DNA of 64,000 nucleotides from Lacinutrix sp. 5H-3-7-4 (GTDB lineage: Bacteria; Bacteroidota; Bacteroidia; Flavobacteriales; Flavobacteriaceae): NCBI RefSeq assembly GCF_000211855.2, contig NC_015638.1, forward strand, positions 682,001 to 746,000, given 5' to 3'. The notes below the pieces were generated by a model. That model was given only the letters and a program-made list of their open reading frames with translations, had not been told where the DNA came from and made no database searches. Shown piece after piece: positions 13,285-33,798 of this stretch. Position numbers and translations under genes: made by a program. How positions within the stretch are numbered: the stretch's first letter is position 1; every line of letters begins with the position of its first letter.

Positions 13285-13710
13285 ATGAAAGAAAAGAAAA
13301 AACCAGATAATGTAGTTTTTAATCAAAGCACTCAAAAATATGATGCATCTTTAAAACCATATGCAACAAATGTTGGTGCTCCTGCAATAAAAGCAACTGA
13401 GAATATTACCTGGAAAAATAAAAATATTTTAAAAGCTAATAAACAAATAGAAGCTAAATATCTTGAACTACAGGCCGAGTACAAGAAAATGATGGAAGAA
13501 TTAGAGTATAATAACTTAGTTTATAATGCTAAATTTAACTTCGAACCAATTATAGGTAACACCTACCACTTATATAGAGACAAAAAAGAACAAGCCTTTC
13601 TTTCTATAATCCCACCAAACGAATGCAACTTTAATTTTATAGGTAGTTTTTATCTAAATTCTGAGTTAATTTGGAAAAAAACCGATAACAATATTAAAGC
13701 AATAAAATAA
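13285..13710 (+). CDS. DUF2452-family protein
   Basis: This 141-residue protein begins with a polar stretch (PDNVVFNQSTQKYDASLKPYA) and then has a coiled-coil-like helix at about 50-75. The last third is rich in beta-strand and aromatic residues, with GNTYHLYRDK and FLSIIPPNEC. This pattern fits the DUF2452 family, which also has eukaryotic members such as human C1orf50. The function of the family is unknown. No signal peptide is present, so it should be cytoplasmic. It follows a strong terminator and precedes the arsenosugar-type cluster by 90 bases; I see no reason to link it to that cluster. Confidence 0.75.
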   Translation: MKEKKKPDNVVFNQSTQKYDASLKPYATNVGAPAIKATENITWKNKNILKANKQIEAKYLELQAEYKKMMEELEYNNLVYNAKFNFEPIIGNTYHLYRDKKEQAFLSIIPPNECNFNFIGSFYLNSELIWKKTDNNIKAIK

Positions 13711-13800: not shown

Positions 13801-14136
13801 ATGAGCAAAACATATTACGATCCTGCAGATCTTAGAAAATTTGGAAAAATTAGTGAATGGAACCAGGAATTAGGTGACAAATTCTTTGATTACTATGGAA
13901 AAGTTTTTGAAGAAGGTTCACTAACTGCAAGAGAAAAATCTCTAATAGCATTAGCAGTAGCACATACAGAGCAATGTCCATATTGTATAGACGCTTATAC
14001 AAAAGATGGATTACAACGCGGGATTACAAAAGAAGAAATGATGGAAGCATTACATGTTGGAGCAGCCATAAAAAGTGGAGCTACTTTAGTTCACGGTGTT
14101 CAAATGATGAATAAAGTGAACAAATTAGAAATGTAA
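13801..14136 (+). CDS. AhpD/CMD-like protein of the arsenosugar cluster
   Basis: A 111-residue carboxymuconolactone-decarboxylase (AhpD-like) fold protein. The redox pair is CPYC (Cys59, Cys62) inside AHTEQCPYCIDAY. The classical AhpD proton-relay His after the second Cys is a Tyr here, so simple peroxidase activity is uncertain. Proteins of this subgroup are known to sit beside ArsS and are annotated as arsenosugar-biosynthesis-associated peroxidase-like proteins. The two cysteines could handle an arsenic thiolate or act as a disulfide reductant, which is inference. The next gene, 153 bases downstream on the same strand, is arsS. A short 8-bp hairpin without a T run lies between them at 14143-14162. 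Confidence 0.85.
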   Translation: MSKTYYDPADLRKFGKISEWNQELGDKFFDYYGKVFEEGSLTAREKSLIALAVAHTEQCPYCIDAYTKDGLQRGITKEEMMEALHVGAAIKSGATLVHGVQMMNKVNKLEM

Positions 14137-14259
14137 TTTCTTTATACTTTTCTTAAAGTATAATATATAGACATAGTTAAAATAGAACAGTTATTATTTA
14201 TAACTTAAAATTTTACAACATTTCAAACCCTCAAATTTCTCAAAACTAAACAAAGCAAT

Positions 14260-14269
14260 TTTACGTAAA
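14260..14269. promoter_or_regulatory. Palindrome TTTACGTAAA upstream of arsS
   Basis: A perfect 10-bp palindrome ends 20 bases before the arsS ATG. A related 18-bp palindrome with the same TACG half lies just before the next gene (15369-15386). Both could be sites for a dimeric regulator; no regulator gene is present in this cluster. Confidence 0.3.
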
Positions 14270-14289
14270 CATTACAGTAAAACTTAATA

Positions 14290-15354
14290 ATGGGTAAATT
14301 AAAAACACAATCACTACAAAAAAGGGATAGTGATTTAGCAAATAGTAATAGACAATTAGAAATTTTATCTAATGGTATTTTTGGTAGTGGAGAATTACCA
14401 ACTTTTAAAACTAAAATTGCTGAAACAAACCAATTTCCTTTAAAAGCAAGAAAACTTGAAATCCTACAAATAAATGTTGGTTACATGTGTAATCAAGTTT
14501 GTGAACATTGCCATGTCGATGCAGGACCAGACAGAAAAGAAATAATGACGCGTGAAACCATGCAACAAATTCTTGATGTTATAAAAGTTACAGGCGCGCA
14601 CACTTTAGACTTAACTGGTGGCGCTCCAGAAATGAACCCAAATTTTAGATGGTTTGTTGAAGAAGCTGCAAAAGTTGGCGTTAAAGATTTTATTGTACGC
14701 TCTAACTTAACCATTATTAGAGCCAATAAAAAATATTACGATTTACCAGATTTCTTTAAAAAACACAATATTCATGTTGTATCCTCTATGCCACACTGGA
14801 CCAGAGGAAAAACAGATAAGCAACGTGGCGAAGGTGTTTTTGACATGTCTATTAAAGCCTTGCAAGAATTAAACGATCGTGGATATGGTATGCCAGATAG
14901 CGACTTAAAACTAGATCTAGTTTACAACCCTAATGGCGCCTATTTACCAGGAGATCAAGCAACCATGGAAAAGGACTTTAAAAAAGCATTAATGGAAGAT
15001 TTTGGTATAAGTTTCCACAATTTATTTGCCATAACTAATTTACCAATTTCTCGCTTTTTAGACTATTTAATTGCTAGTGAAAACTACGAAGATTATATGT
15101 ATGCTTTAGTAGAAGCCTATAATCCTACTGCTGTACAAAATGTTATGTGTACAAACACTTTATCTGTAAGTTGGGATGGTTTTTTATTTGACTGTGACTT
15201 TAACCAAATGTTAGACTTACCAGTTAATAGTAAAGCAAAACATATTAGTGAATATAAAGAAGAATTATTAGAAGGCAGAAATATAGTTATATCACAACAT
15301 TGCTACGGTTGTACTGCTGGTGCAGGAAGTAGTTGTCAAGGTGTTGTAGCATAA
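14290..15354 (+). CDS. arsS: Arsenosugar biosynthesis radical SAM protein ArsS
   Basis: ArsS is a radical SAM enzyme that, in characterised relatives, joins the 5'-deoxyadenosyl group of SAM to dimethylarsenite, giving the nucleoside precursor of arsenosugars. The 354-residue protein has the cluster motif CNQVCEHC (Cys67, Cys71, Cys74) with HVDAGPDR after it. The SAM-binding LTGGAPEMNP lies near residues 109-118. The C-terminal DUF3641-type Cys-rich region has CTNTLSVSWDG, FDCDFNQ and the end motif CYGCTAGAGSSCQG. Some relatives carry selenocysteine in this tail, but all positions here are ordinary codons. It leads the plus-strand cluster and is followed after 38 bases by a DUF2064 transferase. 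Confidence 0.92.
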   Translation: MGKLKTQSLQKRDSDLANSNRQLEILSNGIFGSGELPTFKTKIAETNQFPLKARKLEILQINVGYMCNQVCEHCHVDAGPDRKEIMTRETMQQILDVIKVTGAHTLDLTGGAPEMNPNFRWFVEEAAKVGVKDFIVRSNLTIIRANKKYYDLPDFFKKHNIHVVSSMPHWTRGKTDKQRGEGVFDMSIKALQELNDRGYGMPDSDLKLDLVYNPNGAYLPGDQATMEKDFKKALMEDFGISFHNLFAITNLPISRFLDYLIASENYEDYMYALVEAYNPTAVQNVMCTNTLSVSWDGFLFDCDFNQMLDLPVNSKAKHISEYKEELLEGRNIVISQHCYGCTAGAGSSCQGVVA

Positions 15355-15368
15355 ATTAAATCCACTTT

Positions 15369-15386
15369 TTTTCGTAATTACGAAAA
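15369..15386. promoter_or_regulatory. 18-bp perfect palindrome before the first DUF2064 gene
   Basis: TTTTCGTAATTACGAAAA is fully self-complementary and ends six bases before the ATG at 15393, in the short gap after arsS. With no loop it fits a dimer-binding operator better than a hairpin. A related but shorter half, TTTCGTAA, occurs at 26741-26748 before the GT2 gene of the same cluster. Confidence 0.35.
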
Positions 15387-15392
15387 CAATAA

Positions 15393-16082
15393 ATGAGGCA
15401 AAAAACAGCAATATTAATATTTGCAAATTCTGCAAAAGCAGAAGGTTTAAATAAACCTTTTAAAAAGTCTACTGCCTTATTTAACGCTTTAAATTCTCAA
15501 ATTAAAAATAAAGTAAAACAAACCAATTTACCTTATTTTATAATTACAGAAAAAGAGCAAATTGGCGATACTTTTGGATCTCGTTTTACAAACGCCATAC
15601 AATTTGTTTTTAATAAAGGATTCGATAATATTATTACCGTAGGTAATGATACGCCACATTTACAAAAAAAACATATACTAGAAGCTAATAGAAAACTTAA
15701 AAGCAATAATAATAGCTTGGTTTTAGGTCCATCTCAAGATGGTGGTTTCTATTTAATGGCAATAAAAAAATCTTTATTCAATTCTAAAGATTTTTTAAAT
15801 CTACCATGGCAAACTGCTTCGTTAAATAATAGAATATTAAAATTATTAGCGCTTAAAAAAGTTAAAATCTCATTATTAGAGAGTTTAATAGATATTGACT
15901 CTACTAAGGATGCGAGTACTATTTTAAATAGTTTTAGAAATCTGCCTGTATTAATAAAAAATATTTTATTTCAAATTATTGCTTCAGCTAAAACTATAGC
16001 AAATTTTCAGTTTCAATTTTTTAAACTGATAAACACTACATCGTACTATAATAAAGGCTCACCGTTTATATTTTCAACCTAA
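15393..16082 (+). CDS. DUF2064 (TIGR04282-type) transferase, divergent copy
   Basis: This 229-residue protein belongs to the DUF2064 group of nucleotidyl/glycosyl-transferase-like proteins that travel with ArsS. It keeps the core VGNDTPHL (compare GSDxxHL) and GPSQDGGFYLMAI. The N-terminal signature NPxxGxxKTRL, which binds the nucleotide in the family, is replaced by the unrelated NSAKAEGLNKPFKKS. The last 50 residues form an extra hydrophobic and basic tail. The second, canonical copy is at 23575-24186. This copy may have a different substrate, or act as a partner rather than a catalyst. It lies between arsS and the susC gene. Confidence 0.8.
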   Translation: MRQKTAILIFANSAKAEGLNKPFKKSTALFNALNSQIKNKVKQTNLPYFIITEKEQIGDTFGSRFTNAIQFVFNKGFDNIITVGNDTPHLQKKHILEANRKLKSNNNSLVLGPSQDGGFYLMAIKKSLFNSKDFLNLPWQTASLNNRILKLLALKKVKISLLESLIDIDSTKDASTILNSFRNLPVLIKNILFQIIASAKTIANFQFQFFKLINTTSYYNKGSPFIFST

Positions 16083-16145
16083 AAAATAAGAAACATTACC
16101 AAAACTGTTTCTAAACAAACTAATTTGAATATATAAACTAATTAA

Positions 16146-19100
16146 ATGAAACACATTTACATATGTGCGTTGCTACTAATTTCAAGTTTTAGCTTTGCAC
16201 AAACTACAATTACAGGTACTGTTACCAGTGCTAATGATGGAGAAACTCTACCATTTGTAAATATTATTACAGCAAACAATCAAGGAACAATCACTAACGA
16301 AGATGGAAAATATTCTATTATAGTTGACGATAATACAAACTTAATTCAATTCTCTTTTTTAGGTTATAAAACACAAGTTATACCTATTGAAAACAAAACA
16401 ATAATTAATGTTGAACTTGAAGAAGATGCTTCGGCATTAGACGAAGTTGTTATTACAGCATTAGGTCTAGAACGCGAAAGAAAAGAATTAGGTTATGTTG
16501 TACAATCACTAAAATCTGAAGGTATAAATGAAGTTAAATCTGTTAATTTTTTAGATAATTTAGCAGGAAAACTAGCTGGTGTAACTGTTTCGCAAGGCGC
16601 TACAGGTGTTGGTTCATCTTCTAAAATTACAATTCGTGGTGAAGCTTCATTTTCTAACAACAATCCATTATTTGTTGTAGATGGTATACCTATAAATAAC
16701 AATACTGTATTTAATTTTACTAACGAAGCGGCTGCAGGTTTTCAAGAAATAGATTTTGGAAATGGTGCTATGGAAGTTAATGCAGACGATATTAAAGAAG
16801 TTTCGGTTTTAAAAGGGCCAAGTGCTGCCGCACTTTATGGCACAAGAGCTTCAAATGGTGTAATTGTTATTACTACTAAAGATGGTAAAAAAACTAAAGG
16901 TTTAGGTATTAGCATAAACTCTTCTGTTTTTATAGACACCGCATTTAGACTACCAGATTTTCAAAATTCTTATGGTCAAGGTAACTCTGGTATGTTTGAG
17001 TTTGTAGATGGTCTTGGAGGAGGCACAAATGATAACATTAGTTATTCTTGGGGACCAAGATTAGATGCAGGAATATCTGTAAATCAATTTGATAGCCCTG
17101 TATATTTAGAGAATGGAAATATTATTCGTGGTGGAGACACTTCACTTTATAATAATCCTGCTTTAATTAGACCTACAGAATTAAAATCGCACCCAGATAA
17201 CCTTAAAGATTTTTACGAAACTGGTGTTACTACAATTAATAATATTGCTATTGCAAATGGTTTTGAAAATGGAGATTATAGATTGTCTTTTACCGATTTA
17301 AGAAGCGAATCTATAATTCCGGGTGTTAATTTAGATAGACAAACTGTTGCTGTAAAATTAAATTTTCAACCTACAGAAAAAACAACCTTTTCATCATCTA
17401 TTGCTTATACTAATTCAAGTAGTGATAATAGACCTTCAAATGGTTATGGTAGTGAAAACGTAAACTACTCTCTTGTTGCTTGGGGACCGCGAAGCTTAAA
17501 TATTAATAACCTGAAAAATTATTGGCAACCTGGACTAGAAAATGTACAACAATACTCGTTTAACTATACTTTTTTCGATAATCCTTACTTTATTTTATAC
17601 GAAAACAGAAACGCTTTTAATCGTGATCGTGTATTTGGAAACATTGCTTTAAAGCACAATTTTACTAATAATTTAAGCTTACAAGTAAGAACTGGCATGG
17701 ACTACTCTAGTGAAAAAAGAGAACTGCGTCGTGCTTTTTCAAGTAACCGCTTTAAAAATGGTGCTTACGCAGAGCATGATGTTAACTACAGAGAGGTTAA
17801 CACAGACTTTTTACTAAATTATAATACACTGTTTGGCGATTTTAAAATAGATGTTTCTTTAGGTGGTAACCGTTTAGACCAAACAGCATCTACAAAACAA
17901 ACACAAACTGTTAATTTAGCACAACCAGGTATATTTAGTTTAAATAATGCCGCATCACCAATAGAAGTATTTCAATACAAATCTAAAAAACGTATAAATT
18001 CATTTTACGGTATTGCTAAATTTGGCTACAAAGATTATTTGTTTCTAGATATCACTGGCCGTAACGATTGGTCGAGTGCTTTAGCCACTCCTTTTTCAGT
18101 AAACAACACCTCTTTCTTTTATCCTTCAGCTTCAGCAAGTTTTATTTTATCTAATGTAACCATGTTACCAGAAAGCATTTCATTTGCAAAACTAAGAGCG
18201 AGTGTTGCTCAAGTTGGTAACGATACTGGCGCTTACCAAACTTCTGGTGCATTTGTATCACAAACGCCGTTTAATAGTGAGCCAACATTTAGCGACCAAG
18301 ACTTTATTCCTAACTCAAATTTAAAACCAGAAAGCACAACGTCTTATGAATTTGGTGCAGATTTACGCTTTTTAAACGATAGGTTTAGAATTGACTTCAC
18401 ATATTATAATGCAATTACTAAAGATCAAATAATTTCTTTACCAATTCCTATTTCTTCTGGTTATGCTCAACAAGTTGTAAATGGTGGTAAAGTAACCTCT
18501 AAAGGTGTAGAAATTATTGCCGGATTAACACCTATTAAAAGCAATAACTTCACTTGGAATACAACGTTTAATTTCGCTACAAATACAGCTACTATTACAG
18601 AGTTACCTCAGGCAGATGGCCGTTTAACTTTAGCTTATAGCAGGATTTACGATTCTCAAAACCAAACCGTTTGGTTTCAAGTTGAAGAAGGCGGACGTAT
18701 TGGTGATTTTTATGGTACAGGTTATTTAAAAAATGAAAATGGAGATTTTATAATAGATGATAACGGAAACTATATTGCAGATAACAAATTACAAAAACTA
18801 GGTAATTACAACCCAGATTTTACCTTAGGATGGAATAACGATTTTAAATATAAAAATTGGACCGCTAGCTTTTTATTCGATTGGAGACAAGGCGGCGAAT
18901 TAGTTTCTAGAACAAGTGCTTTAGGTAATGTTGGCGGCCAATTAGCCGAAACCGAATACAGACCCGAAGAAGGTATTATTGCGCAAGGTGTTACCCAAAC
19001 CGGAGAACCTAATACTATCGCTATTTCTGCCGAAAGTTATTACAGACAATTTTACGATAGAAATCATGAAGAAAATAATGTATATGATGCTTCATACTTA

Positions 19101-19340
19101 AAATTACGTCAATTTTCAATTGGTTATGGCTTTAAATTAAAAGATGGCTTTTTAGGTTTAAAAGAAGGTGGCACTATCGATTTATCTTTAATAGGAAGAA
19201 ACCTTTTTGTAATTACAGAGAACCCACATTTTGATCCAGAACAATTAGCAGTACAAGGCACTGGTTTTGTAAGCGGTGTTGAAGACATGAGTTATGCATC
19301 TTCTCGTAGTTTTGGATTAAAAGCTAGTTTAAATTTTTAA
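16146..19340 (+). CDS. SusC/RagA-type TonB-dependent outer-membrane receptor
   Basis: SusC proteins are outer-membrane barrels that, capped by a SusD lipoprotein, take up oligomers or other large solutes using TonB energy. This 1064-residue protein has a signal peptide cut near residue 19 and a carboxypeptidase-regulatory-like beta domain at about 20-100. The plug domain covers about 100-230 (DEVVITALGLERERK, then PLFVVDGIPINN), followed by a barrel ending in Phe. It is directly followed by susD and a sodium symporter. No sigma/anti-sigma pair, HTCS or SusR regulator is near. Its place inside the arsenosugar-type cluster is unusual, and the substrate cannot be read from sequence. Confidence 0.93.
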   Translation: MKHIYICALLLISSFSFAQTTITGTVTSANDGETLPFVNIITANNQGTITNEDGKYSIIVDDNTNLIQFSFLGYKTQVIPIENKTIINVELEEDASALDEVVITALGLERERKELGYVVQSLKSEGINEVKSVNFLDNLAGKLAGVTVSQGATGVGSSSKITIRGEASFSNNNPLFVVDGIPINNNTVFNFTNEAAAGFQEIDFGNGAMEVNADDIKEVSVLKGPSAAALYGTRASNGVIVITTKDGKKTKGLGISINSSVFIDTAFRLPDFQNSYGQGNSGMFEFVDGLGGGTNDNISYSWGPRLDAGISVNQFDSPVYLENGNIIRGGDTSLYNNPALIRPTELKSHPDNLKDFYETGVTTINNIAIANGFENGDYRLSFTDLRSESIIPGVNLDRQTVAVKLNFQPTEKTTFSSSIAYTNSSSDNRPSNGYGSENVNYSLVAWGPRSLNINNLKNYWQPGLENVQQYSFNYTFFDNPYFILYENRNAFNRDRVFGNIALKHNFTNNLSLQVRTGMDYSSEKRELRRAFSSNRFKNGAYAEHDVNYREVNTDFLLNYNTLFGDFKIDVSLGGNRLDQTASTKQTQTVNLAQPGIFSLNNAASPIEVFQYKSKKRINSFYGIAKFGYKDYLFLDITGRNDWSSALATPFSVNNTSFFYPSASASFILSNVTMLPESISFAKLRASVAQVGNDTGAYQTSGAFVSQTPFNSEPTFSDQDFIPNSNLKPESTTSYEFGADLRFLNDRFRIDFTYYNAITKDQIISLPIPISSGYAQQVVNGGKVTSKGVEIIAGLTPIKSNNFTWNTTFNFATNTATITELPQADGRLTLAYSRIYDSQNQTVWFQVEEGGRIGDFYGTGYLKNENGDFIIDDNGNYIADNKLQKLGNYNPDFTLGWNNDFKYKNWTASFLFDWRQGGELVSRTSALGNVGGQLAETEYRPEEGIIAQGVTQTGEPNTIAISAESYYRQFYDRNHEENNVYDASYLKLRQFSIGYGFKLKDGFLGLKEGGTIDLSLIGRNLFVITENPHFDPEQLAVQGTGFVSGVEDMSYASSRSFGLKASLNF

Positions 19341-19380
19341 AATAATTTTCGGGTAAAACAAAAAACTAAAATTCATAATA

Positions 19381-20826
19381 ATGAAAAATACATTATATAT
19401 ATTCAGTCTTATTATACTTGCTTTTACAACAAGCTGTACAAAAGATTTCGAAGACATAAATACCAATCCCAACACTCCAAATACTGTACAACCTGGTTTA
19501 TTATTACGTCAAGTAATATATAATTTTGGAGACGAAATGAGTTATGAAGGCTTTGTAGCTGGAGATTTATTATCACAACATAGAACGGCTTTAGATTTTA
19601 ATTTATTTGATCGTCATGCCTTAAAATCACCTCAATTAGGTGGGAATCCTTGGCCAATTTTTTATACCAACTTAAGAGATAATGAAATTATTTTAAACCA
19701 ATCAAGAAGCATTTCTACATTTCAAGTTTACGAAGGTCCTGCATTAATTTTAAAAGCATACATGGCTGCAGGATTAACAGATTTGTTTGGAGATGTGCCA
19801 TATTTTGAAGCGTTTAACGGTATTAATGGTACAGTAACACCGGTTTACGATAGCCAAGAGTCTATTTACACAGAAGACAATGGTATTTTACAAAACTTAG
19901 ATAATGGTATTGCTGCAATACAAAACTATTCTCAAAATATTCCTTTAGAAGGCGACATATTATTTAATGGCGATTTAAATGCGTGGGTGAAATTTGCAAA
20001 TGCATTAAAGATTAAAGCTTTGCTTAGAATTTCAGATAAAATAGACGTAGCTACAGAAATGCAAACCATAGTAAGTGAAGGAAACTACATAACTACTAAT
20101 GCTGAAAATGCTGTTTTTAACTTCACAAATTCAGATCCTAACAGCTTCCGTTTAGCACAATTACGAATTGGAGATTTTAATAATTTTGTGTTATCTGAAA
20201 CTATGGAAAATATTCTTTTAGATTATAGTGATTCAAGAATAAGTACTTTTTTTAGACCATTTGCAAATTCAAATTCAGAAGAATTTAATGGGCTAATTAA
20301 TGGTATTGATGCCTCTTCAACCTCTATTGCTTTAGCCGATTATTCTTTAGCAGGAACAGCATTTAGAGAAGATACTTCGGTTTTAGATGCTAATTTTATA
20401 ACCGCCTGGGAAGTACAATTTGCACTTGCCGAAGCTGCCCAAAAAGGATTAATAACAGCCAACGCAGAAGAATTATATAATAACGGAGTCGCTCTTGCTT
20501 TTGAGTATTGGCAAACCCAAATGCCTATAGATTATTTAACAGGAAATGCTGCATTTAATGCTCCAGGAACAACGCCGTTACAACAAATTATTACTCAAAA
20601 ATGGATTGCCAATTTAATAAATGGTTACGAAGGTTGGATAGAATATCGCCGTACAGGATTTCCAGAACTTAACCCAATTTCGGCAAGTTTAAACAACAAT
20701 TTAATTCCGGTAAGAATGCCTTATCCTGCAGAGGAAGAAGCTTTAAATGCAGAAAACTACCAAGCAGCAGCAAGCGCAACAAACGACAACAGTATTAACT
20801 TCCCAGTTTGGTGGGACGAAAATTAA
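19381..20826 (+). CDS. SusD/RagB-family lipoprotein (SusD-like_2 type)
   Basis: SusD proteins are surface lipoproteins that bind the substrate and close the lid of the SusC barrel. The 481-residue protein has a lipoprotein signal ending TTSC (Cys19) and the early signature DFEDINTNPNTPN. Helical TPR-like repeats follow, and the end region EGWIEYRRTGFPELNP is typical of the SusD-like_2 group. It lies 40 bases after susC and four bases before the symporter, so the three are surely co-transcribed. No carbohydrate-active enzyme is encoded next to it, which argues against an ordinary polysaccharide utilisation locus. Confidence 0.92.
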   Translation: MKNTLYIFSLIILAFTTSCTKDFEDINTNPNTPNTVQPGLLLRQVIYNFGDEMSYEGFVAGDLLSQHRTALDFNLFDRHALKSPQLGGNPWPIFYTNLRDNEIILNQSRSISTFQVYEGPALILKAYMAAGLTDLFGDVPYFEAFNGINGTVTPVYDSQESIYTEDNGILQNLDNGIAAIQNYSQNIPLEGDILFNGDLNAWVKFANALKIKALLRISDKIDVATEMQTIVSEGNYITTNAENAVFNFTNSDPNSFRLAQLRIGDFNNFVLSETMENILLDYSDSRISTFFRPFANSNSEEFNGLINGIDASSTSIALADYSLAGTAFREDTSVLDANFITAWEVQFALAEAAQKGLITANAEELYNNGVALAFEYWQTQMPIDYLTGNAAFNAPGTTPLQQIITQKWIANLINGYEGWIEYRRTGFPELNPISASLNNNLIPVRMPYPAEEEALNAENYQAAASATNDNSINFPVWWDEN

Positions 20827-20829
20827 AAT

Positions 20830-22164
20830 ATGAGCACAGAAATATGGCAATGGGTTTTAGTAGTAGGATCAAGTTTAATCTTGTTCCTACTTTCGCCATT
20901 GGCAAAAACCAGTGACTCTTTTTTTAAAGCAAACCATAATAAAAAATCACCAAATGTATTAGTACTTACTGGAAGTTTAATTATCTCATGGATTTTTGCC
21001 AAAAGTATTACTAATGCTGCTAATTTAGGTTTAGACTTTGGTTTAGTTGGTGGTATTGCTTACGCTGGTTATTACTTAAGTTTTGCAGTTGCTGGTGTTT
21101 TAATTTATAAACTAAGAACTAAAGGTGGTTTTAATAGTATTCATGAATTTTTAACCAGTAAATATGGGCGTCGTGCAGTTGCATTATTTTCAATATTAAT
21201 AATCATTCGTTTGTTTAATGAAGTTTGGAGTAATACTATGGTTATTGGCTCATACTTTGGTGTGCAAGGTTCTACTCCTTACTTTACTGCTATTATTGTA
21301 TTTACATTATTAACATTAGCCTATGCTATTAAAGGTGGTTTAAGCAGCTCTATTTTTACAGATGTTATACAAATGGTGTTGTTTTCAATTTTGTTAATAA
21401 TTATTTTATATAGTATTTTTTCTAAAGACAATTTTTCGGCAAGCCAAGTAGTTTCATCTGGAACTTGGAGTTTTGAGTTAGGCTTAAACCTCTTTTTTGC
21501 AGCCATTTTACAATCGTTTAGCTATCCTTTTCATGATCCTGTTTTAACAGATCGTGCATTTATAAGTACACCTAAAGTGACTTTAAAAAGTTTTCTTTGG
21601 GCAAGCGTTTTAGGTGGTTTGTGTATTATATTATTTAGCATTATTGGTATTTATGCGCAAACACAAGGTTTTAAAGGTCAAGCCGCTGTAGAGGTTGGCA
21701 AAGCTTTTGGTGTTGTTATTTTATTAGTTATTAATTTTATAATGATAACTTCTGCTGCATCAACATTAGACTCTACATTTTCATCATTTTCAAAATTACT
21801 AGCGATAGATTTAGGCTTCGGAAAAAACATTTCTTTTGGTAGGTTAGCCATGGTAGTAATTGCTATTTTAGGTACTATTCCAATATTTTTTAATGCCGAA
21901 ATCCTTTCAGCAACTACAATTTCAGGAACAATGGTTATTGGTTTAACTCCAATATTCCTGTTTTGGAATGTAAACGCTCCAAGGTTAAGCTTCTATTTAA
22001 GTGTGGTTTGCGGTCTTGTTTTTGGTTTTTTATTAGTATTTAATGCCTTTCCAGAGTCTTTAATTTTTACAACAGGTAAATATGCACAATTATTATGGGT
22101 AAATATTTGGGGTATTTTAAGTTGTATCGTATTATACTTTTTGCCAAAAGCTTTTTTAAAATAA
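20830..22164 (+). CDS. Sodium:solute symporter family (SSS) transporter
   Basis: A 444-residue inner-membrane protein with about 13 hydrophobic segments. It carries the family signature around KGGLSSSIFTDVIQM (SSS motif GGxxA/SxxxTDxxQ) and SAASTLDSTFSSFSK in the sodium-binding region. SSS members import sugars, nucleosides, amino acids or vitamins with sodium; this one is shorter than the common 480-550 residues, mainly in loops. It is four bases downstream of susD, so the most likely role is to move what SusCD brings into the periplasm across the inner membrane. The substrate is unknown; given the neighbours, a nucleoside-like or organoarsenical solute is possible but not shown. Confidence 0.88.
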   Translation: MSTEIWQWVLVVGSSLILFLLSPLAKTSDSFFKANHNKKSPNVLVLTGSLIISWIFAKSITNAANLGLDFGLVGGIAYAGYYLSFAVAGVLIYKLRTKGGFNSIHEFLTSKYGRRAVALFSILIIIRLFNEVWSNTMVIGSYFGVQGSTPYFTAIIVFTLLTLAYAIKGGLSSSIFTDVIQMVLFSILLIIILYSIFSKDNFSASQVVSSGTWSFELGLNLFFAAILQSFSYPFHDPVLTDRAFISTPKVTLKSFLWASVLGGLCIILFSIIGIYAQTQGFKGQAAVEVGKAFGVVILLVINFIMITSAASTLDSTFSSFSKLLAIDLGFGKNISFGRLAMVVIAILGTIPIFFNAEILSATTISGTMVIGLTPIFLFWNVNAPRLSFYLSVVCGLVFGFLLVFNAFPESLIFTTGKYAQLLWVNIWGILSCIVLYFLPKAFLK

Positions 22165-22194
22165 TAAACTTTCTGTTTTATAGCAGAATTATAT

Positions 22195-23022
22195 ATGAAT
22201 AAAAAAATAAACAACATAGGAACATTAAAAGGTAAAGTATTACTTTTTGGTGGCGTTTACAGTAATCTTCAAGCACTTGAAGCATTAAAAGCAATTGCCG
22301 AAAAAGAAGAAATTCCGGCAGAAAATTGTATTTGCACAGGAGATATAGTTGGCTATTGCGCACAACCTGAAGAAACCGTACAGTTATTTAAACTTTGGAA
22401 AGCTAATAGTATTTTAGGTAATGTAGAAATACAATTAATTGAAAATGCCGAAGATTGTGGTTGCGATTTTACTGAAGGTTCGCGATGCGATGGTTTTTCA
22501 AAATTATGGTATCCTTACGCACAAAGTTTACTTTCTAAAAGTTCTATAAACCATCTTGAAACGTTCCCAGATCATATTGTTTTTGAATATGCTGGCAAAA
22601 AAATCACCGTTGTACATGGTGATTACTTTAATGTTTCAGAATTTATTTTCAAATCTACATCTTGGCAAAAAAAAGAAGAGACCTTTAATGCCACCCAAAG
22701 CGATGTAATAGTTGCTGGACACTGTGGTTTGCCTTTTTATCATGAAGAAAACAATAAATTATGGCTAAATCCAGGTGTTATTGGTATGCCTGCTAACGAT
22801 GGTTCACCTCAAGTTTGGTATGCTATTTTAGACGATGCTAGTGGCGAATTGCAATTTAAACATTATAATCTCGACTATAATTATAAGCTTACTAATAAGC
22901 TTATGCAAAACGGTTTATTACCAGAAGAATATGCCCGAACTATTGTAACAGGAATTTGGGATAATACCGAAATTTTACCAGCAGTAGAAAGTGGTTTGCA
23001 AGGTTTTGGCATCACGCTTTAA
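22195..23022 (+). CDS. Metallophosphoesterase-fold protein with altered metal ligands
   Basis: This 275-residue cytoplasmic protein has the fold and order of YfcE-like phosphoesterases: SNLQALEAL, CTGDIVGYCAQPEETV, VVHGDYFN, VAGHCGLPF and LNPGVIGMP. However, the first metal motif (usually DxHGN) reads GGVYSN at residues 19-24, so both the Asp and the His are lost. The usual GNHD is GNVE at 75-78. It also carries many cysteines (45, 47, 55, 88, 90, 98), including DCGCDFTEGSRC. It may be inactive as a phosphoesterase, or use a different metal site; a Cys-based arsenic or metal site is a speculation prompted by the neighbours. It is 30 bases after the symporter gene and 19 bases before the rhodanese. 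Confidence 0.8.
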   Translation: MNKKINNIGTLKGKVLLFGGVYSNLQALEALKAIAEKEEIPAENCICTGDIVGYCAQPEETVQLFKLWKANSILGNVEIQLIENAEDCGCDFTEGSRCDGFSKLWYPYAQSLLSKSSINHLETFPDHIVFEYAGKKITVVHGDYFNVSEFIFKSTSWQKKEETFNATQSDVIVAGHCGLPFYHEENNKLWLNPGVIGMPANDGSPQVWYAILDDASGELQFKHYNLDYNYKLTNKLMQNGLLPEEYARTIVTGIWDNTEILPAVESGLQGFGITL

Positions 23023-23041
23023 TTAATTAAATTACAGTACC

Positions 23042-23572
23042 ATGAAACACGTTATACTTATACTAATTGCTTTATTTTCTGTAGAATTATCTGCTCAAAA
23101 AACTATAGACGATTTGCTAAAACAGTACAACGATAATGGTGTACCATATATAAGTGTAGAAGAATTAGCAATGCCTAAAACCAAAGCTATTATTTTTGAT
23201 ACACGCGAACCAAAAGAATATGAAGTCAGCCATTTAAAAAATGCTGTTTGCGTTGGTTACGATAATTTTGATTTGGCTTCAATTGAAAAAAAATATCCTA
23301 ATAAATCTGAAAAAATAGTAGTCTATTGTTCGCTTGGTATTCGCTCTGAAACTATAGGCGAAAAACTAAAAAAAGCAGGATATACAAATGTTTATAATTT
23401 ATACGGTGGTATTTTTGAATGGAAAAATAAAGATTTTACTGTTATAGATTCTCAAAATAACGAAACAGAAAGCATACATACTTTTAACAAAACGTGGAGT
23501 AAATGGCTTAAAAAAGGTAAAAAAGTGTTTAAAAAAGATGAAAAACAACCTAAAAACTCTAAAAAGCAATAA
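23042..23572 (+). CDS. Exported rhodanese-like protein
   Basis: A 176-residue protein with a signal peptide (about 1-19), then one rhodanese domain at about 25-135. The active loop is VVYCSLGIRSETIG, with the catalytic Cys at residue 96. Rhodaneses carry sulfur as a persulfide; some relatives such as Acr2 reduce arsenate, but that requires a different active loop. The C-terminal 35 residues are very basic (many Lys), which could bind membrane or polyanions. It sits between the phosphoesterase-like gene and the second DUF2064 gene, two bases from the latter. A periplasmic sulfur-transfer step on the cluster product, such as making a thio-arsenical, is a possible but untested role. Confidence 0.85.
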   Translation: MKHVILILIALFSVELSAQKTIDDLLKQYNDNGVPYISVEELAMPKTKAIIFDTREPKEYEVSHLKNAVCVGYDNFDLASIEKKYPNKSEKIVVYCSLGIRSETIGEKLKKAGYTNVYNLYGGIFEWKNKDFTVIDSQNNETESIHTFNKTWSKWLKKGKKVFKKDEKQPKNSKKQ

Positions 23573-23574
23573 AA

Positions 23575-24186
23575 ATGCGTAAGAATCTTATAATAACCTT
23601 TACACGTAATCCAGAGTTAGGAAAATGTAAAACACGTTTAGCAAAAACTATTGGAGACGAAGCAGCATTACGAGTTTACAAATACCTTTTACAGCATACA
23701 GAACAGGTTATTAAACAAGTTGATGCAGATAAAGCGGTCTATTATTCTGTAAAAATTAGAGAGAACGATTTATGGGATGCTTCAGTATTTCAAAAATACC
23801 AGCAAGTTGGAGACGATTTAGGTATTAGAATGCAAAACGCATTTAAAAATGGATTTAATAACAACTACCAAAAAATTGTTATTGTTGGTAGCGATTTATT
23901 TCATTTACAACCGCAACATATTGAAGACGCTTTTAAAGCCTTAGATAGTAATGATGTTGTAATTGGTCCAGCAGAAGATGGCGGTTATTATCTATTAGGC
24001 ATGAAAACACTACACACTTCGGTTTTTAAAAATAAAAATTGGGGAACAGAAACTGTTTTTAGCGATACAATTTCTAACTTAACAAACCAAAAAATTCATT
24101 TATTAGAAACATTAAATGATATAGATTTATACGAAGATTTAGAACATATTAAACCACTACAAAATATTATAAAAAACAATGATTAA
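23575..24186 (+). CDS. DUF2064 (TIGR04282-type) transferase, canonical copy
   Basis: A 203-residue protein of the CofC-like transferase group found with ArsS. It has the complete N-terminal NPELGKCKTRLAK at about 13-25, GSDLFHL at about 104-110, GPAEDGGYYLLGM at about 137-149, and the late WGTETVF and NDIDLYEDL. The family resembles nucleotidyltransferases that activate sugars or sugar-like groups. It overlaps the start of the phosphorylase gene by eight bases, so the two are translationally coupled. In an arsenosugar route it could activate or transfer the sugar made after adenine removal; this is inferred from context. Confidence 0.87.
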   Translation: MRKNLIITFTRNPELGKCKTRLAKTIGDEAALRVYKYLLQHTEQVIKQVDADKAVYYSVKIRENDLWDASVFQKYQQVGDDLGIRMQNAFKNGFNNNYQKIVIVGSDLFHLQPQHIEDAFKALDSNDVVIGPAEDGGYYLLGMKTLHTSVFKNKNWGTETVFSDTISNLTNQKIHLLETLNDIDLYEDLEHIKPLQNIIKNND

Positions 24187-24991
24187 ATACATAAAAAAAA
24201 CAGTAGAATACTTAAAAGAAAAAGGTTTTAATAATCCTGAAGTTGGTATTATTCTAGGCACTGGTTTAAGTAAAATTACAGATGAGCTTGAGATTATTGA
24301 AGAGGTAAGTTACAACCACATTCCGCATTTTCCAACTGCTACTGTAGAGTTTCATAAAGGAAAACTTATTTATGGTAAACTAGAAGGTAAAACTGTAATT
24401 GTTATGCAAGGTCGGTTTCATATTTACGAAGGTTACACCTTACAAGATGTAACATATCCTGTGCGTGTAATGGAAAAACTTGGTATAAAAACGCTATTAG
24501 TTTCAAACGCATCTGGTGCAATAAATTTAGACTTCAAAAAAGGTGAATTAATGTTAATTGACGACCATATTAATTTACAAGGTAGTTCGCCATTAGCATT
24601 TAAAGGTGTTCAAAAACTTGGAGAACGTTTTACAGATATGAGTGCGCCTTACGATGCAGAAATAAATTCAAAATTTGAAACCATTGCAAAAGCCAATAAT
24701 ATTAAACTTCATAAAGGTGTTTATGCTAGTGTTGTTGGACCTCAACTTGAAACCAGAGCAGAATATAGAATGCTAAAAATTATTGGTGCAGATGCTGTGG
24801 GCATGAGTACGGTTCCCGAAATTATTGTTGCCAACCATTTAAACTTAAAAGTTGCTGCCGTTTCTGTATTAACAGACGAGTGCGACCCTAAAAACTTAAA
24901 GCCAGTAGATATTGAAGAGATTATTGCTATGGCAACAAAGGCAGAACCTAACATGATTACATTATTTAAAGAATTAATTAAAAGCCTGTAA
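24179..24991 (+). CDS. Purine nucleoside phosphorylase (trimeric type)
   Basis: A 270-residue enzyme of the PNP/MTAP family that splits purine nucleosides with phosphate into base and ribose 1-phosphate. Visible motifs are GIILGTGLS, the substrate loop GRFHIYEGY, VSNASGAIN and the signature GPQLETRAEYRML with GADAVGMSTVPE. The length is normal for the trimeric class. Its start overlaps the DUF2064 gene by eight bases. In this cluster it could release adenine from the arsenic-containing deoxyadenosyl product of ArsS to give the 1-phosphate sugar used by the transferases. A role in ordinary purine salvage cannot be excluded. Confidence 0.92.
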   Translation: MIKYIKKTVEYLKEKGFNNPEVGIILGTGLSKITDELEIIEEVSYNHIPHFPTATVEFHKGKLIYGKLEGKTVIVMQGRFHIYEGYTLQDVTYPVRVMEKLGIKTLLVSNASGAINLDFKKGELMLIDDHINLQGSSPLAFKGVQKLGERFTDMSAPYDAEINSKFETIAKANNIKLHKGVYASVVGPQLETRAEYRMLKIIGADAVGMSTVPEIIVANHLNLKVAAVSVLTDECDPKNLKPVDIEEIIAMATKAEPNMITLFKELIKSL

Positions 24992-25053
24992 GTAGATAGA
25001 CATAAATGCGTCGAAACTAACACAGCTTAATTTGCTATGACCTTTAGTGATAT

Positions 25054-25941
25054 ATGAAAAGATATATAGACATAATAAAAAATGCGTATTCTGGTTATTG
25101 GAATTATCTTAAAAACGAGATTATAACCATTAATCATTGGGATAACTTTTTTTATGGCCTAATTGTAATTTCAATTCTAGTTTGGATATTAGAAATTGCA
25201 TTTCCATGGCGTAAAGACCAATCTATTTTTAGAAAAGATTTTTGGTTAGATACGTTTTATATGTTCTTCAACTTTTTTCTTTTAAATTTAATAGTACTTA
25301 TCGCATTAACAGATACTGCTGCAAACTTTTTTGATGATATTCTAGGCTTAGTTGGTTTGTCTATTTCTAATTTTCAATTGTTTGATGTAGACGAGTTACC
25401 ATTATGGTTAGGCTTACTTATCTTTTTTATTGTTAGCGATTTCACACAATGGAATACGCATAGACTATTGCATCGTGTTCCGTTTTTATGGAACTTTCAT
25501 AAAGTACACCATAGCGTAAAAGAAATGGGCTTTGCTGCACACTTACGCTACCACTGGATGGAGCCAATAGTTTATAAATCTTTACTCTACATACCAATTG
25601 CAATAATTGGTGGTTTTGACGCTAAACACGTGGCTATTGTTCACTTTTTTAGCATAACCATTGGACACTTAAACCATGCTAATCTAGGTTGGGATTATGG
25701 TGTTTTAAAATACGTATTTAATAACCCAAAAATGCACATTTGGCATCACGCAAGAGAATTGCCTAAAAAAGGAAGTTACGGTGTGAATTTTGGCTTAACT
25801 TTAAGTCTATGGGATTATTTATTTAACACAAATTACGTACCTTATAATGGTAAGGATATTGAGTTAGGATTTCATGGAGATGAAGACTTCCCAAAGGATT
25901 TTGTTAGTCAGGAACTGTATCCTATAAAATTTAAAAAATAA
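25054..25941 (+). CDS. Sterol desaturase / fatty acid hydroxylase family membrane protein
   Basis: A 295-residue integral membrane di-iron enzyme. Four or five hydrophobic helices surround the His clusters: HRLLHR near 145, HKVHH near 157, HLNH near 208 and HIWHH near 233. The family hydroxylates or desaturates lipids or sterols, or cleaves alkylglycerol ethers. It is 62 bases after the phosphorylase and nine bases before the DUF547 gene. Modification of the lipid part of a glyco- or arsenolipid would fit the cluster; this is inference, as the family is broad. Confidence 0.88.
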   Translation: MKRYIDIIKNAYSGYWNYLKNEIITINHWDNFFYGLIVISILVWILEIAFPWRKDQSIFRKDFWLDTFYMFFNFFLLNLIVLIALTDTAANFFDDILGLVGLSISNFQLFDVDELPLWLGLLIFFIVSDFTQWNTHRLLHRVPFLWNFHKVHHSVKEMGFAAHLRYHWMEPIVYKSLLYIPIAIIGGFDAKHVAIVHFFSITIGHLNHANLGWDYGVLKYVFNNPKMHIWHHARELPKKGSYGVNFGLTLSLWDYLFNTNYVPYNGKDIELGFHGDEDFPKDFVSQELYPIKFKK

Positions 25942-25949
25942 ATCTATTT

Positions 25950-26729
25950 ATGAAAAAATTACTTTTTTTAGCTTGTGTTGCTTTAACCTTAAACAGTTGT
26001 TTTTCGGCTAAAGGTTTACCGGTAAAAACAGTGGATACTGTAAGTGAAAATTCACAAACAGAAAGCACAACAACTACACAAACAGTAGATCATGCTCAGT
26101 TTGATGCTTTGCTAAAAAAATACGTCGCTAAAAATGGCGATGTAGATTACAAAGGTTTTAAAAATGATAGCGATAAATTAAACAGTTATATTAATTACCT
26201 GGAACAACAAACACCGTCTAAAGCTTGGAGTGTAGAAACACAACTAGCTTATTTTATTAATGTTTACAATGCCAATACCATAAAACTTATAATAGAAAAC
26301 TATCCTACAGAAAGCATTAAGGATATTGACAAACCATGGTTAAAAAACAGATTTAAAATAGGTGATAATGAATTTTCTTTAGCGGGATTAGAAAATGGAA
26401 TTTTACGTAAAATGAATGAACCTAGAATACATTTTGCTATTAATTGCGCATCAACCTCATGCCCAAAATTATTAGATGAAGCTTATACTGAAGCTAATGT
26501 TATGGCATTAATGGAGCGTGCCACAAAAGAATTTATAAACAACAATTCTAAAAACCAAATAGCTTCAGATAGCATTAAAATCTCTGAAATATTTAAATGG
26601 TATAAAAGTGATTTTACTGAAAACGGTTCTGTTATAGACTATATCAATAAATACAGTGATACCAAAATAAACGCCAATACCAAAGTAGAGCATTTAGATT
26701 ATGATTGGAGTTTAAATGAACAAAACTAA
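25950..26729 (+). CDS. DUF547 lipoprotein (first copy)
   Basis: A 259-residue protein with a lipoprotein signal ending LNSC (Cys17), a Ser/Thr-rich linker to about residue 45, then a DUF547 domain. Conserved features are FINVYNANTIKLIIENYP, HFAINCASTSCPKL and the late FKWYKSDF. DUF547 has a papain-like or transglutaminase-like appearance with conserved Cys, but no activity is established to my knowledge. A second DUF547 protein is at 31585-32301. It lies between the hydroxylase and the GT2 gene, and DUF547 genes are known neighbours of the ArsS group. Confidence 0.88.
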   Translation: MKKLLFLACVALTLNSCFSAKGLPVKTVDTVSENSQTESTTTTQTVDHAQFDALLKKYVAKNGDVDYKGFKNDSDKLNSYINYLEQQTPSKAWSVETQLAYFINVYNANTIKLIIENYPTESIKDIDKPWLKNRFKIGDNEFSLAGLENGILRKMNEPRIHFAINCASTSCPKLLDEAYTEANVMALMERATKEFINNNSKNQIASDSIKISEIFKWYKSDFTENGSVIDYINKYSDTKINANTKVEHLDYDWSLNEQN

Positions 26730-26756
26730 ACAGCTAATTATTTCGTAAATGATTCT

Positions 26757-27446
26757 ATGATTAGCATAGTAATTCCTATTTTAAACGAAGCAGACAATAT
26801 TGAAAATTTACTTTTTCATTTAATTGATAATGCTTCATTACAAAACATTCAAGAAATAATTGTTGTCGATGGTGGCAGTACAGATGGTTCTCAAGAAATT
26901 ATAAAAAATCTTGATTTAAAGGTAAAACTTATAAATTCTGAAAAAGGAAGAGCCAAACAAATGAATACTGGAGCAAAATTAGCTTCTGGTGAGATTTTAT
27001 ATTTTTTGCATGCCGATTCTTTTCCGCCAACACATTACGATAAATATATTATAGAAGAAGTAAAACAGAATAACCAAGCTGGTTGTTTTCGTTTAACTTT
27101 TAATAACAACCATTGGTGGTTGCGCTTAGCCAGTTGGCTTACACAATTTAAGTGGCGCGCTTGCCGTGGTGGTGACCAAAGCCAATTTATTACCAAAGCC
27201 TTATTTGAAGATATTGGTGGTTTTGATGAAAGCTATATTATTTATGAAGATAATATCTTAATTAATGAACTTTATAAACGCAACGAATTTGTTGTGATTA
27301 ATAAAAAAATTGAGACATCAGATAGGTTATACAAACGTCACGGCATTTGGAAATTACAATACCACTTTTGGACAATTTATGTAAAAAAATGGTTTGGTGC
27401 TAGTGCCGAAGATTTATGTGCGTATTATAAAAAACACATTGCTTAA
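26757..27446 (+). CDS. GT2 glycosyltransferase (TIGR04283 type, arsenosugar cluster)
   Basis: A 229-residue GT-A glycosyltransferase. It has IVIPILNEADNIENLL at the start, VVDGGSTDGS near 37-46, the metal-binding LHADS near 84-88, and the acceptor region GGFDESYIIYEDN. This small GT2 form is a known companion of ArsS and is annotated as an arsenosugar biosynthesis glycosyltransferase. It is soluble, with one weakly amphipathic stretch (HWWLRLASWL) that may touch the membrane. It ends the plus-strand cluster and faces the phosphatase gene tail-to-tail with 17 bases between. A TTTCGTAA half-site is at 26741-26748, just before the start. Confidence 0.88.
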   Translation: MISIVIPILNEADNIENLLFHLIDNASLQNIQEIIVVDGGSTDGSQEIIKNLDLKVKLINSEKGRAKQMNTGAKLASGEILYFLHADSFPPTHYDKYIIEEVKQNNQAGCFRLTFNNNHWWLRLASWLTQFKWRACRGGDQSQFITKALFEDIGGFDESYIIYEDNILINELYKRNEFVVINKKIETSDRLYKRHGIWKLQYHFWTIYVKKWFGASAEDLCAYYKKHIA

Positions 27447-27463: not shown

Positions 27464-28222
27464 CTAATGCGAATCGTTAAAAGATTTTGGGTTTCTTCCT
27501 TTTTCATTAGCATACATTTTTTGTACCTCATCACTTTGTATTACAGCTTTTGTATCTAAATTTATAGCAGACACTTTTCCTGTAAAAGCAGCGCCAGTAT
27601 CTACATTCCACACATTTATAGCTTGCATTGGTTCTGTAGAATTAAATCGGGTTGTTGGTGTATGCCCAATATAAATTTCTTTGTAGTGTTTTAATCTGTT
27701 TGGATAAAGTGCTGAGTCTTCTTTTATACCTTTATCCATAACTAAAGCCATTTCCCAAAGTGTTCTATCTGTATAAAAACTTTTTTCAAAAACTTCTTTT
27801 TCTACACCATGCATAGAAGTAAAACCAGCATGCAAAAATAAACGGTTGTTATGGTCTATAAAATAAATTTTCATGTCTTGAAAAAACTCAAGATGCTTCT
27901 GTTTTTCTTCTTCCGAAAAACCATTATAACTCTCCACAGTACCTTTTCCTCCATGCATTAACCAAGCATCATTAGTAGCTCCAGATTTCAACCATTTTTC
28001 ACACCAAACATCATGATTTCCTTTTATAAAAACACAATTATATTTTTCTGAAAAATAAATTAAATATTGAATAACTTGAGCCGATTCGCTCCAACCATCT
28101 ACATAATCACCAAGAAAAATAAAGTGATCGTTCTCTTGTATTTCAATACGCTCTAATACTTGTTCTAAAGCTTTTAAACCGCCATGAATATCTCCAATGG
28201 CAAATGTTCTATGTAATTCCAT
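27464..28222 (-). CDS. PPP-family (calcineurin-like) phosphatase
   Basis: A 252-residue cytoplasmic metallophosphatase with the complete motif set: GDIHGG, GDYVDGW, GNHDVW, HAGF, IGHTPT and WNVDTGA. Unlike the degenerate copy at 22195, all metal ligands are present. The family includes Ser/Thr phosphatases and diadenosine polyphosphate hydrolases; the exact substrate is unknown. It is monocistronic or the first gene of a minus-strand set that does not continue, since the gene upstream (28312) runs into it after an 89-base gap. A 20-bp palindrome lies directly upstream of the ATG. Confidence 0.88.
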   Translation of the reverse strand: MELHRTFAIGDIHGGLKALEQVLERIEIQENDHFIFLGDYVDGWSESAQVIQYLIYFSEKYNCVFIKGNHDVWCEKWLKSGATNDAWLMHGGKGTVESYNGFSEEEKQKHLEFFQDMKIYFIDHNNRLFLHAGFTSMHGVEKEVFEKSFYTDRTLWEMALVMDKGIKEDSALYPNRLKHYKEIYIGHTPTTRFNSTEPMQAINVWNVDTGAAFTGKVSAINLDTKAVIQSDEVQKMYANEKGRNPKSFNDSH

Positions 28223-33788: not shown

Positions 33789-33798
33789 CCTAAACAAA

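Follow-up and report, generated by a model that had tools for sequence, protein, structure and literature searches.

The closest described system to the locus treated here is the arsenosugar biosynthesis cluster with ArsM and ArsS, and according to the accessible part of PMC12159101 a radical SAM enzyme adenosylates arsenic in arsenosugar synthesis. A 64,000-nucleotide stretch of the Lacinutrix sp. 5H-3-7-4 genome (NC_015638.1, positions 682,001 to 746,000; hereafter the window) carries at positions 13801–27446 a cluster that shares with this system ArsS, its AhpD-like partner, the TIGR04282 and TIGR04283 transferases, a purine nucleoside phosphorylase (PNP) and a rhodanese-domain protein, but differs from it by an uptake module located between arsS and the rhodanese gene and by the absence of ArsM genome-wide. 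Like the SusCD nutrient importers of polysaccharide or peptide loci the module has a pair of SusC (TIGR04056) and SusD (PF12771) with an adjoining inner-membrane symporter, but no carbohydrate enzyme or peptidase is seen in it and it is tied to arsS. Its sodium:solute symporter (SSS) and a metallophosphoesterase-fold protein (MPE) look functionally tied to the arsS pathway, with uptake and synthesis as one programme, and the chances are about even that the module serves the arsenosugar pathway by importing an organoarsenical that feeds ArsS.

The 13 genes are all on the + strand in the order ahpD-arsS-[DUF2064a-susC-susD-SSS-MPE]-rhodanese-DUF2064b-PNP-fatty-acid hydroxylase-DUF547-GT2, where the brackets mark the module and GT2 is a family-2 glycosyltransferase. 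The spacing is 153 bases between ahpD and arsS, and -8 to +63 bases from arsS to GT2; the initial annotation had likewise described one strand with short gaps.

13801–14136, +, AhpD-like partner of ArsS (TIGR04169, 192.7 bits, over cut-off)
14290–15354, +, ArsS, radical SAM enzyme of arsenosugar synthesis (TIGR04167, 436 bits, over cut-off; DUF3641, 186.4 bits)
15393–16082, +, divergent DUF2064 protein (D2064a), first gene of the module (PF09837, 63.4 bits, over cut-off; TIGR04282, 90.7 bits, under the cut-off of 134)
16146–19340, +, SusC-type TonB-linked outer membrane channel (TIGR04056, 612.1 bits)
19381–20826, +, SusD-like surface lipoprotein (PF12771, 308.7 bits)
20830–22164, +, predicted sodium:solute symporter (SSS), inner membrane (TIGR00813, 29.4 bits, and PF00474, 18.0 bits, both under cut-off; fold match by Foldseek)
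22195–23022, +, degenerate metallophosphoesterase-fold protein (MPE) (PF12850, 47.3 bits; Foldseek matches 3rqz and SapH)
23042–23572, +, rhodanese-domain protein (NF045521, 220 bits)
23575–24186, +, DUF2064/TIGR04282 transferase (D2064b) (TIGR04282, 218.3 bits, over cut-off)
24179–24991, +, purine nucleoside phosphorylase (PNP) (NF006054, 346.8 bits)
24992–25053, no strand, 62-base gap, site of the arsenosugar ArsM in many relatives, ArsM absent here
25054–25941, +, fatty-acid hydroxylase family protein (PF04116, 93.4 bits)
25950–26729, +, DUF547 protein (PF04784, 93.3 bits)
26757–27446, +, family-2 glycosyltransferase GT2 (TIGR04283, 238.6 bits, over cut-off)

The cut-offs used were 120 bits for TIGR04169, 300 for TIGR04167, 134 for TIGR04282, 368.25 for TIGR04056, 27 for PF12771, 22.8 for PF00474 and 400 for NF038099. 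ArsS and its TIGR04169, TIGR04282 and TIGR04283 companions all score over theirs, as in an arsenosugar cluster, and the locus is predicted to make arsenosugars or arsenolipids. SusC and SusD are adjacent and both over their family cut-offs, as in a SusCD importer, and Cys19 of SusD is kept in at least 98% of 102 aligned rows. No carbohydrate-active enzyme is found within the module, unlike in a polysaccharide utilization locus, and no carbohydrate hydrolase was seen inside it when the loci were read gene by gene by eye. The genes named in the initial annotation (ArsS, AhpD-like, two DUF2064, SusC, SusD, symporter, PNP, DUF547 and GT2) are all intact open reading frames with family support, weak on Pfam for the symporter, while MPE, the rhodanese, the fatty-acid hydroxylase and the genome-wide absence of ArsM had been missed.

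Association of the module with arsS

A search with the TIGR04167 (ArsS) profile in 249 genomes of the same family and 295 genomes of the class gave ArsS over cut-off in 184 and 47 of them respectively. For comparison of gene order 100 arsS neighbourhoods were used: 60 from the family, mainly those with the highest arsS scores and so no random sample, and 40 from other families. The common core is ahpD-arsS-rhodanese-D2064b-PNP-ArsM-fatty-acid hydroxylase-DUF547-GT2 with many partial forms, and the AhpD-like gene is present in 56 of the 57 family loci without SSS. The susC-susD-SSS-MPE set is present in only four of the 100 neighbourhoods (L082, L087, L091 and L113, the last from another family and with the set on the opposite strand), indicating an optional insert. 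Absence of the module from other arsS clusters, which had been named beforehand as the outcome that would overturn the proposal, is therefore not what the comparison of gene order gave, yet the module is carried by only 33 of the 184 arsS-positive family genomes.

SSS matches of 550 to 931 bits were found in 34 of the 249 family genomes, with nothing further at E up to 1e-40, and MPE matches of at least 372 bits in 33, with nothing further at E up to 1e-30; these are the same genomes except for G533, which has SSS only. Every one of the 33 genomes with MPE also has arsS, against a background of 184/249 (hypergeometric p 2.0e-5, phylogeny being ignored in this and the other co-occurrence p-values). 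In 32 of the 34 SSS genomes arsS is in the same locus and on the same strand as SSS (the window, L082, L087 and 29 of L137–L166), and in 32 of the 33 genomes with SSS and MPE the distance between SSS and arsS is at most 8.2 kb; one SSS locus, L144 in G381, lacks arsS, which is found elsewhere in that genome. In the class sample SSS and MPE mark the same eight of 295 genomes, the MPE matches being at least 289 bits with the next best at 87, and all eight are among the 47 arsS-positive ones (p 2.4e-7, or 1.5e-6 when our own genome is left out). In five of the eight (G001, G058, G108, G200 and G210) the module is apart from arsS, about 70 kb away in G108, about 91 kb in G200 and on different contigs in the other three, and arsS is still present. 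That the two go together even when they are not neighbours is what points most strongly to a common function. Altogether the SSS-MPE pair occurs in 40 distinct genomes, every one with arsS, and the claim of the initial annotation that uptake and synthesis form one programme is thus well supported.

When species-representative genomes were scanned for the SSS protein, 292 relatives came up, and the 80 best-scoring ones were analysed. These belong to Lacinutrix, Olleya, Winogradskyella, Polaribacter, Algibacter, Psychroserpens, Dokdonia, Flavivirga and other genera, several being named after algae, and the nearest named record found among them is Lacinutrix sp. MedPE-SW with an SSS 99% identical. 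Within these 80 loci arsS is present in 77, susC in 76, susD in 77, MPE in all 80 and D2064a in 71, where the uniformity is overstated since they are the most similar part of the matches; the three without arsS (L182, L217 and L250) are short and cut at contig ends. When the 80 relatives are taken together with the 33 family SSS loci, among which some represent one place fetched twice (e.g. L087 and L173), SSS and arsS are on the same strand in 108 of the 108 loci that hold both, and at most 8.2 kb apart from start to start.

The five genes D2064a-susC-susD-SSS-MPE move as a block. The module is intact in L168, L169 and L170 and also in L144, where the surroundings appear housekeeping-like by eye; in L171 MPE has the opposite orientation, and D2064a is missing from L172 and L113. 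In L144, L168 and L170–L172 no further gene was seen to travel with the module. D2064a precedes susC also in the modules remote from arsS (L144 and L168–L171), and D2064a-like matches, some of which may be the paralogue, are found near arsS in 16 of the 57 family loci that lack SSS; D2064a is thus not confined to the module. The protein has kept the family motifs GND and GPxxDGGxY but no longer has the KxRL loop, and it is fast-changing, with 60% identity in L174 against 86–97% for its neighbours. Three loci, L039, L152 and L252, have a very divergent arsS (56–57% identity, tree branches above 2) beside DUF547 and without an ahpD partner; L152 and L252 (Flavicella sediminum) look like one place.

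The symporter and the metallophosphoesterase-fold protein

SSS scores 18.0 bits on PF00474 in the window and 27.9 in the distant orthologue of L113, on either side of the cut-off. The structural model (pLDDT 77) is matched by Foldseek about equally to SGLT, CHT1, SiaT, NIS and urea carriers, with E-values of 9e-10 to 4e-8 for SGLT, CHT1 and SiaT, and the protein is predicted to import a solute in a sodium-driven manner. It shares the fold of the SGLT, CHT1, SiaT and NIS symporters but falls under the Pfam SSF cut-off in the window and has a conserved polar motif of its own (SYPFHDPVLTDR); the invariant charged residues in 47 sequences include K58, R127, E131, H235, D236, D241, R242 and D314. 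Among proteins of solved structure only CHT1 is related in sequence when E-values up to 1 are admitted (1.3e-5). A choline-type cargo was considered from this match and rejected, since the alignment spans under half of the protein and the carriers of sugar, choline, sialic acid, iodide and urea have similar ranks in Foldseek.

The MPE model (pLDDT 91.8) matches 3rqz and the asymmetric Ap4A hydrolase SapH with E-values of about 1e-15. It shares with these proteins the fold and D50, N76, H141 and H176, but has GGVYSN for SDVHAN in motif I (GxY for DxH), GNVE for GNHD in motif III and GHCG for GHTH in motif V, and in addition four invariant cysteines. By the standard superfamily scheme of ligands (DxH, GDxx[DG], GNH[DE], H, GHxH), four of the eight ligand or catalytic positions are replaced, which does not leave the residue set of an active enzyme. 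The changes presumably abolish metal site 1 together with the catalytic histidine but spare metal site 2, to which D50, N76, H141 and H176 are assigned. The motifs GGxYSN/GNVE/GHCG recur in an alignment of 108 rows, from which identical sequences had been removed and which includes sequences from other families with 48–54% identity: G20, Y22 and G178 are found in all 108 rows and V77 in 107, and C55, C88, C90 and C98 are invariant, with C45 in 102, C47 in 100 and C177 in 99. MPE is thus probably not an ordinary phosphoesterase, and we propose that the cysteines may form a thiol site for arsenic; the model is least reliable in the loop with Cys 88–98. The other phosphoesterase of the window (27464–28222) has the motifs GDIHG, GDYVD and GNHD.

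Missing ArsM and the nature of the cargo

In L082, L091 and L090 the gene after PNP, directly or past one small gene, is the arsenosugar ArsM (NF038099, 564–578 bits), and ArsM is found inside the locus in 44 of the 60 family and 13 of the 40 other-family neighbourhoods. It is present in 146 of the 249 family genomes, all arsS-positive, which ties the cluster to arsenic. The genome of the window (3.3 Mb, one contig, complete) has no NF038099 match anywhere, the best match to an ArsM query being 26.8 bits, and ArsM was not found in the genus mate G385. Among the arsS-positive family genomes ArsM is missing in 16 of the 33 with the module and 22 of the 151 without it (Fisher p 5.9e-5), and none of the six module genomes outside the family has ArsM over the cut-off, where G058 (116 bits) and G242 (91 bits) may hold other ArsM types. 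Loss of ArsM thus trends with the presence of the module in the expected direction, which is suggestive only as the independent pairs are too few (see below). A strict replacement of ArsM by the module was considered and dropped, because the first contrast came from a sample short of ArsM-less genomes: in loci with both PNP and GT2, ArsM was present in 32/33 without SSS and 10/20 with SSS, and the 57 loci without SSS under-sampled the genomes lacking ArsM. Of the 22 arsS-positive genomes with neither ArsM nor SSS, three had been read at first and four of the other 19 were fetched later; L254 and L255 are complete clusters, L256 is partial and L253 has ahpD-arsS alone.

With importers for both membranes encoded inside an arsenosugar cluster, or inherited together with one, it is a substrate of the pathway that would be taken up. 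ArsS needs methylated arsenic, and with no ArsM found in the genome an organoarsenical is the most economical cargo. SusD would capture it at the cell surface, SusC would move it across the outer membrane with energy from TonB and SSS would carry it over the inner membrane; MPE, with one metal site kept and cysteines gained, might bind or process it ahead of ArsS. ArsS would then adenosylate the arsenic, PNP, the DUF2064 proteins and GT2 would build arsenosugars or arsenolipids, and ArsM could become dispensable, as in this genome. We put forward tentatively, and with less confidence than the general role, that this is a TonB-dependent salvage of environmental organoarsenicals, in which SusCD and SSS import a methylated arsenical (an arsenosugar, an arsenolipid fragment or a related compound) from algae or seawater, the cysteine-rich former phosphoesterase receives it in thiol-bound form and ArsS reuses it, which would allow ArsM to be lost. 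The putative organoarsenical cargo suggested by the initial annotation is plausible and has indirect support, with ArsM missing here and more often in module genomes, but this trend loses its significance when independent pairs are compared; the nucleoside-like precursor suggested beside it found no specific support.

Several observations weigh against import of an organoarsenical by the complete module. ArsM is retained in 17 of the 33 module genomes, and there are ArsM-less clusters without SSS (L035, L037, L085, L254 and L255). In an arsS tree of 90 rows, which shares the sampling bias of the fetched loci, seven starred independent pairs differed in ArsM, with SSS opposite in 3.1 on average and the same in 0.1 (median p 0.25). 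Small arsenicals such as dimethylarsinic acid (DMA) should need no TonB channel; judging from the behaviour of SusCD systems, the likelier cargo would be something larger, an arsenosugar or a fragment of an arsenolipid. SusC and SusD are far more diverged than SSS in L170 (43 and 37% identity against 60% for SSS, with MPE at 50%) and may therefore be exchangeable. The SSS-MPE pair is without SusCD in L142, L145 and L152 and also in L219, L237 and L252; in the three family genomes with the pair that were searched for SusD (G460, G415 and G296) there is no orthologue, the best SusD matches being 95, 191 and 88 bits against 817–857 in true orthologues, indicating that SusCD is absent there and not relocated. 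Finally, a 58% identical SSS relative is located in a phenylacetate cluster of G533 (L167:5886-10620), after the phenylacetyl-CoA epoxidase genes paaABCD, in a genome with no arsS, MPE or SusD match. The SSS subfamily is therefore not arsenic-only, and it is SSS together with MPE that marks arsS genomes; the position of this relative in a 27-row tree is unsure, and it hints at a wider cargo range of the subfamily.

The G533 relative would fit an ordinary nutrient SusCD-symporter set that came to lie in the cluster by chance, as would a SusD type with many solved nutrient-binding relatives, but such a set would hardly be confined to 40 genomes that all have arsS, unlinked cases included, nor has any other gene been seen moving with it, and we consider this explanation very improbable. 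It is rather unlikely, though a serious alternative, that the module imports a co-substrate without arsenic, such as a nucleoside or an acceptor or head group for arsenoribose transfer. The exclusive co-occurrence with arsS requires just a link to the pathway, D2064a is a relative of the transferase of the cluster, and the 17 genomes that keep ArsM mean that methylated arsenic need not be the cargo; however, loss of ArsM tends to accompany the module, and the invariant cysteine set of MPE would not be needed for a sugar or the head group of a lipid. That the pathway handles no arsenic at all, ArsS acting on another substrate which the module imports, appears improbable. The window genome and 37 other arsS-positive family genomes do lack the arsenosugar ArsM, but against this stand the confinement of ArsM to arsS-positive family genomes and its frequency inside the family loci, the presence of Acr3 (442.5 bits) in the window genome, and the arsenic adenosylation by a radical SAM enzyme cited in the accessible part of PMC12159101.

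Seaweeds are rich in arsenosugars, as stated in the accessible parts of PMC6656958 and PMC5478658, and uptake of small organoarsenicals, apparently by animal cells, is described as largely unknown in that of PMC12608789 (2025). In the full text of the open-licence literature nothing was found on arsenosugars together with TonB, and SusCD together with arsenic gave only work that appears unrelated by its titles and the opening of its abstracts; no report in the open-licence literature was found that links arsenic or ArsM with TonB-dependent SusD uptake in flavobacteria, nor any on uptake of organoarsenicals by marine bacteria. If import of an organoarsenical by the module is correct, it would widen the cargo range of SusCD, help to explain arsenosugar clusters without ArsM, and provide a new use of the metallophosphoesterase fold in metalloid handling, with a named protein, the cysteine-containing MPE, for arsenic chemistry. 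The module is a genetically delimited and conserved candidate importer in culturable marine flavobacteria, and, to our knowledge, would be without precedent as a SusCD importer devoted to arsenic.

Regulatory signals and neighbouring genes

A Bacteroidota-type promoter pattern has seven matches against 7.7 expected, and none between the genes of the cluster. Rfam gave no match, and ten terminator-like sites were found where 6.2 are expected, which is uninformative.

An arsenic-resistance operon was considered as a neighbour of the module and treated as a coincidence, since among module loci it is found only in L168 and is absent in L169 of the same genus. Such genes are present in two of the 218 loci searched, L168 and L103, the latter without the module. 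In L168:750-3240 (G108) an arsR-DUF6428-arsC-acr3-like set is located about 5 kb from the unlinked module; acr3 scores 437.5 bits, the other names are given by eye, and no NCBIfam model matched the arsC-like gene at 1e-10.

The absence of a glycoside hydrolase from the SusCD set, as stated in the initial annotation, holds for the module, but a GH113-family gene (29568–30572, - strand, PF22612, 137.6 bits) is located 2.1 kb past GT2 and occurs also at loci without SusCD. It is part of an opposite-strand block with a phosphoesterase, a POTRA-like protein, the GH113 gene and a second DUF547-like gene, and this block recurs beside arsS clusters with and without SusCD; the GH113 gene is present in 30 of the 57 loci without SSS and seven of the 33 with SSS, where the fetched stretches cover different parts. 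Directly upstream of ahpD a DUF2452 protein is encoded at 13285–13710 (+), matched among the loci searched only in L087 and L173 of the same genus. Further downstream, positions 32484–35391 (+) encode an FAD/NAD oxidoreductase and an iron-sulfur protein, and relatives of the oxidoreductase are found in 26 of the 57 family arsS loci without SSS.

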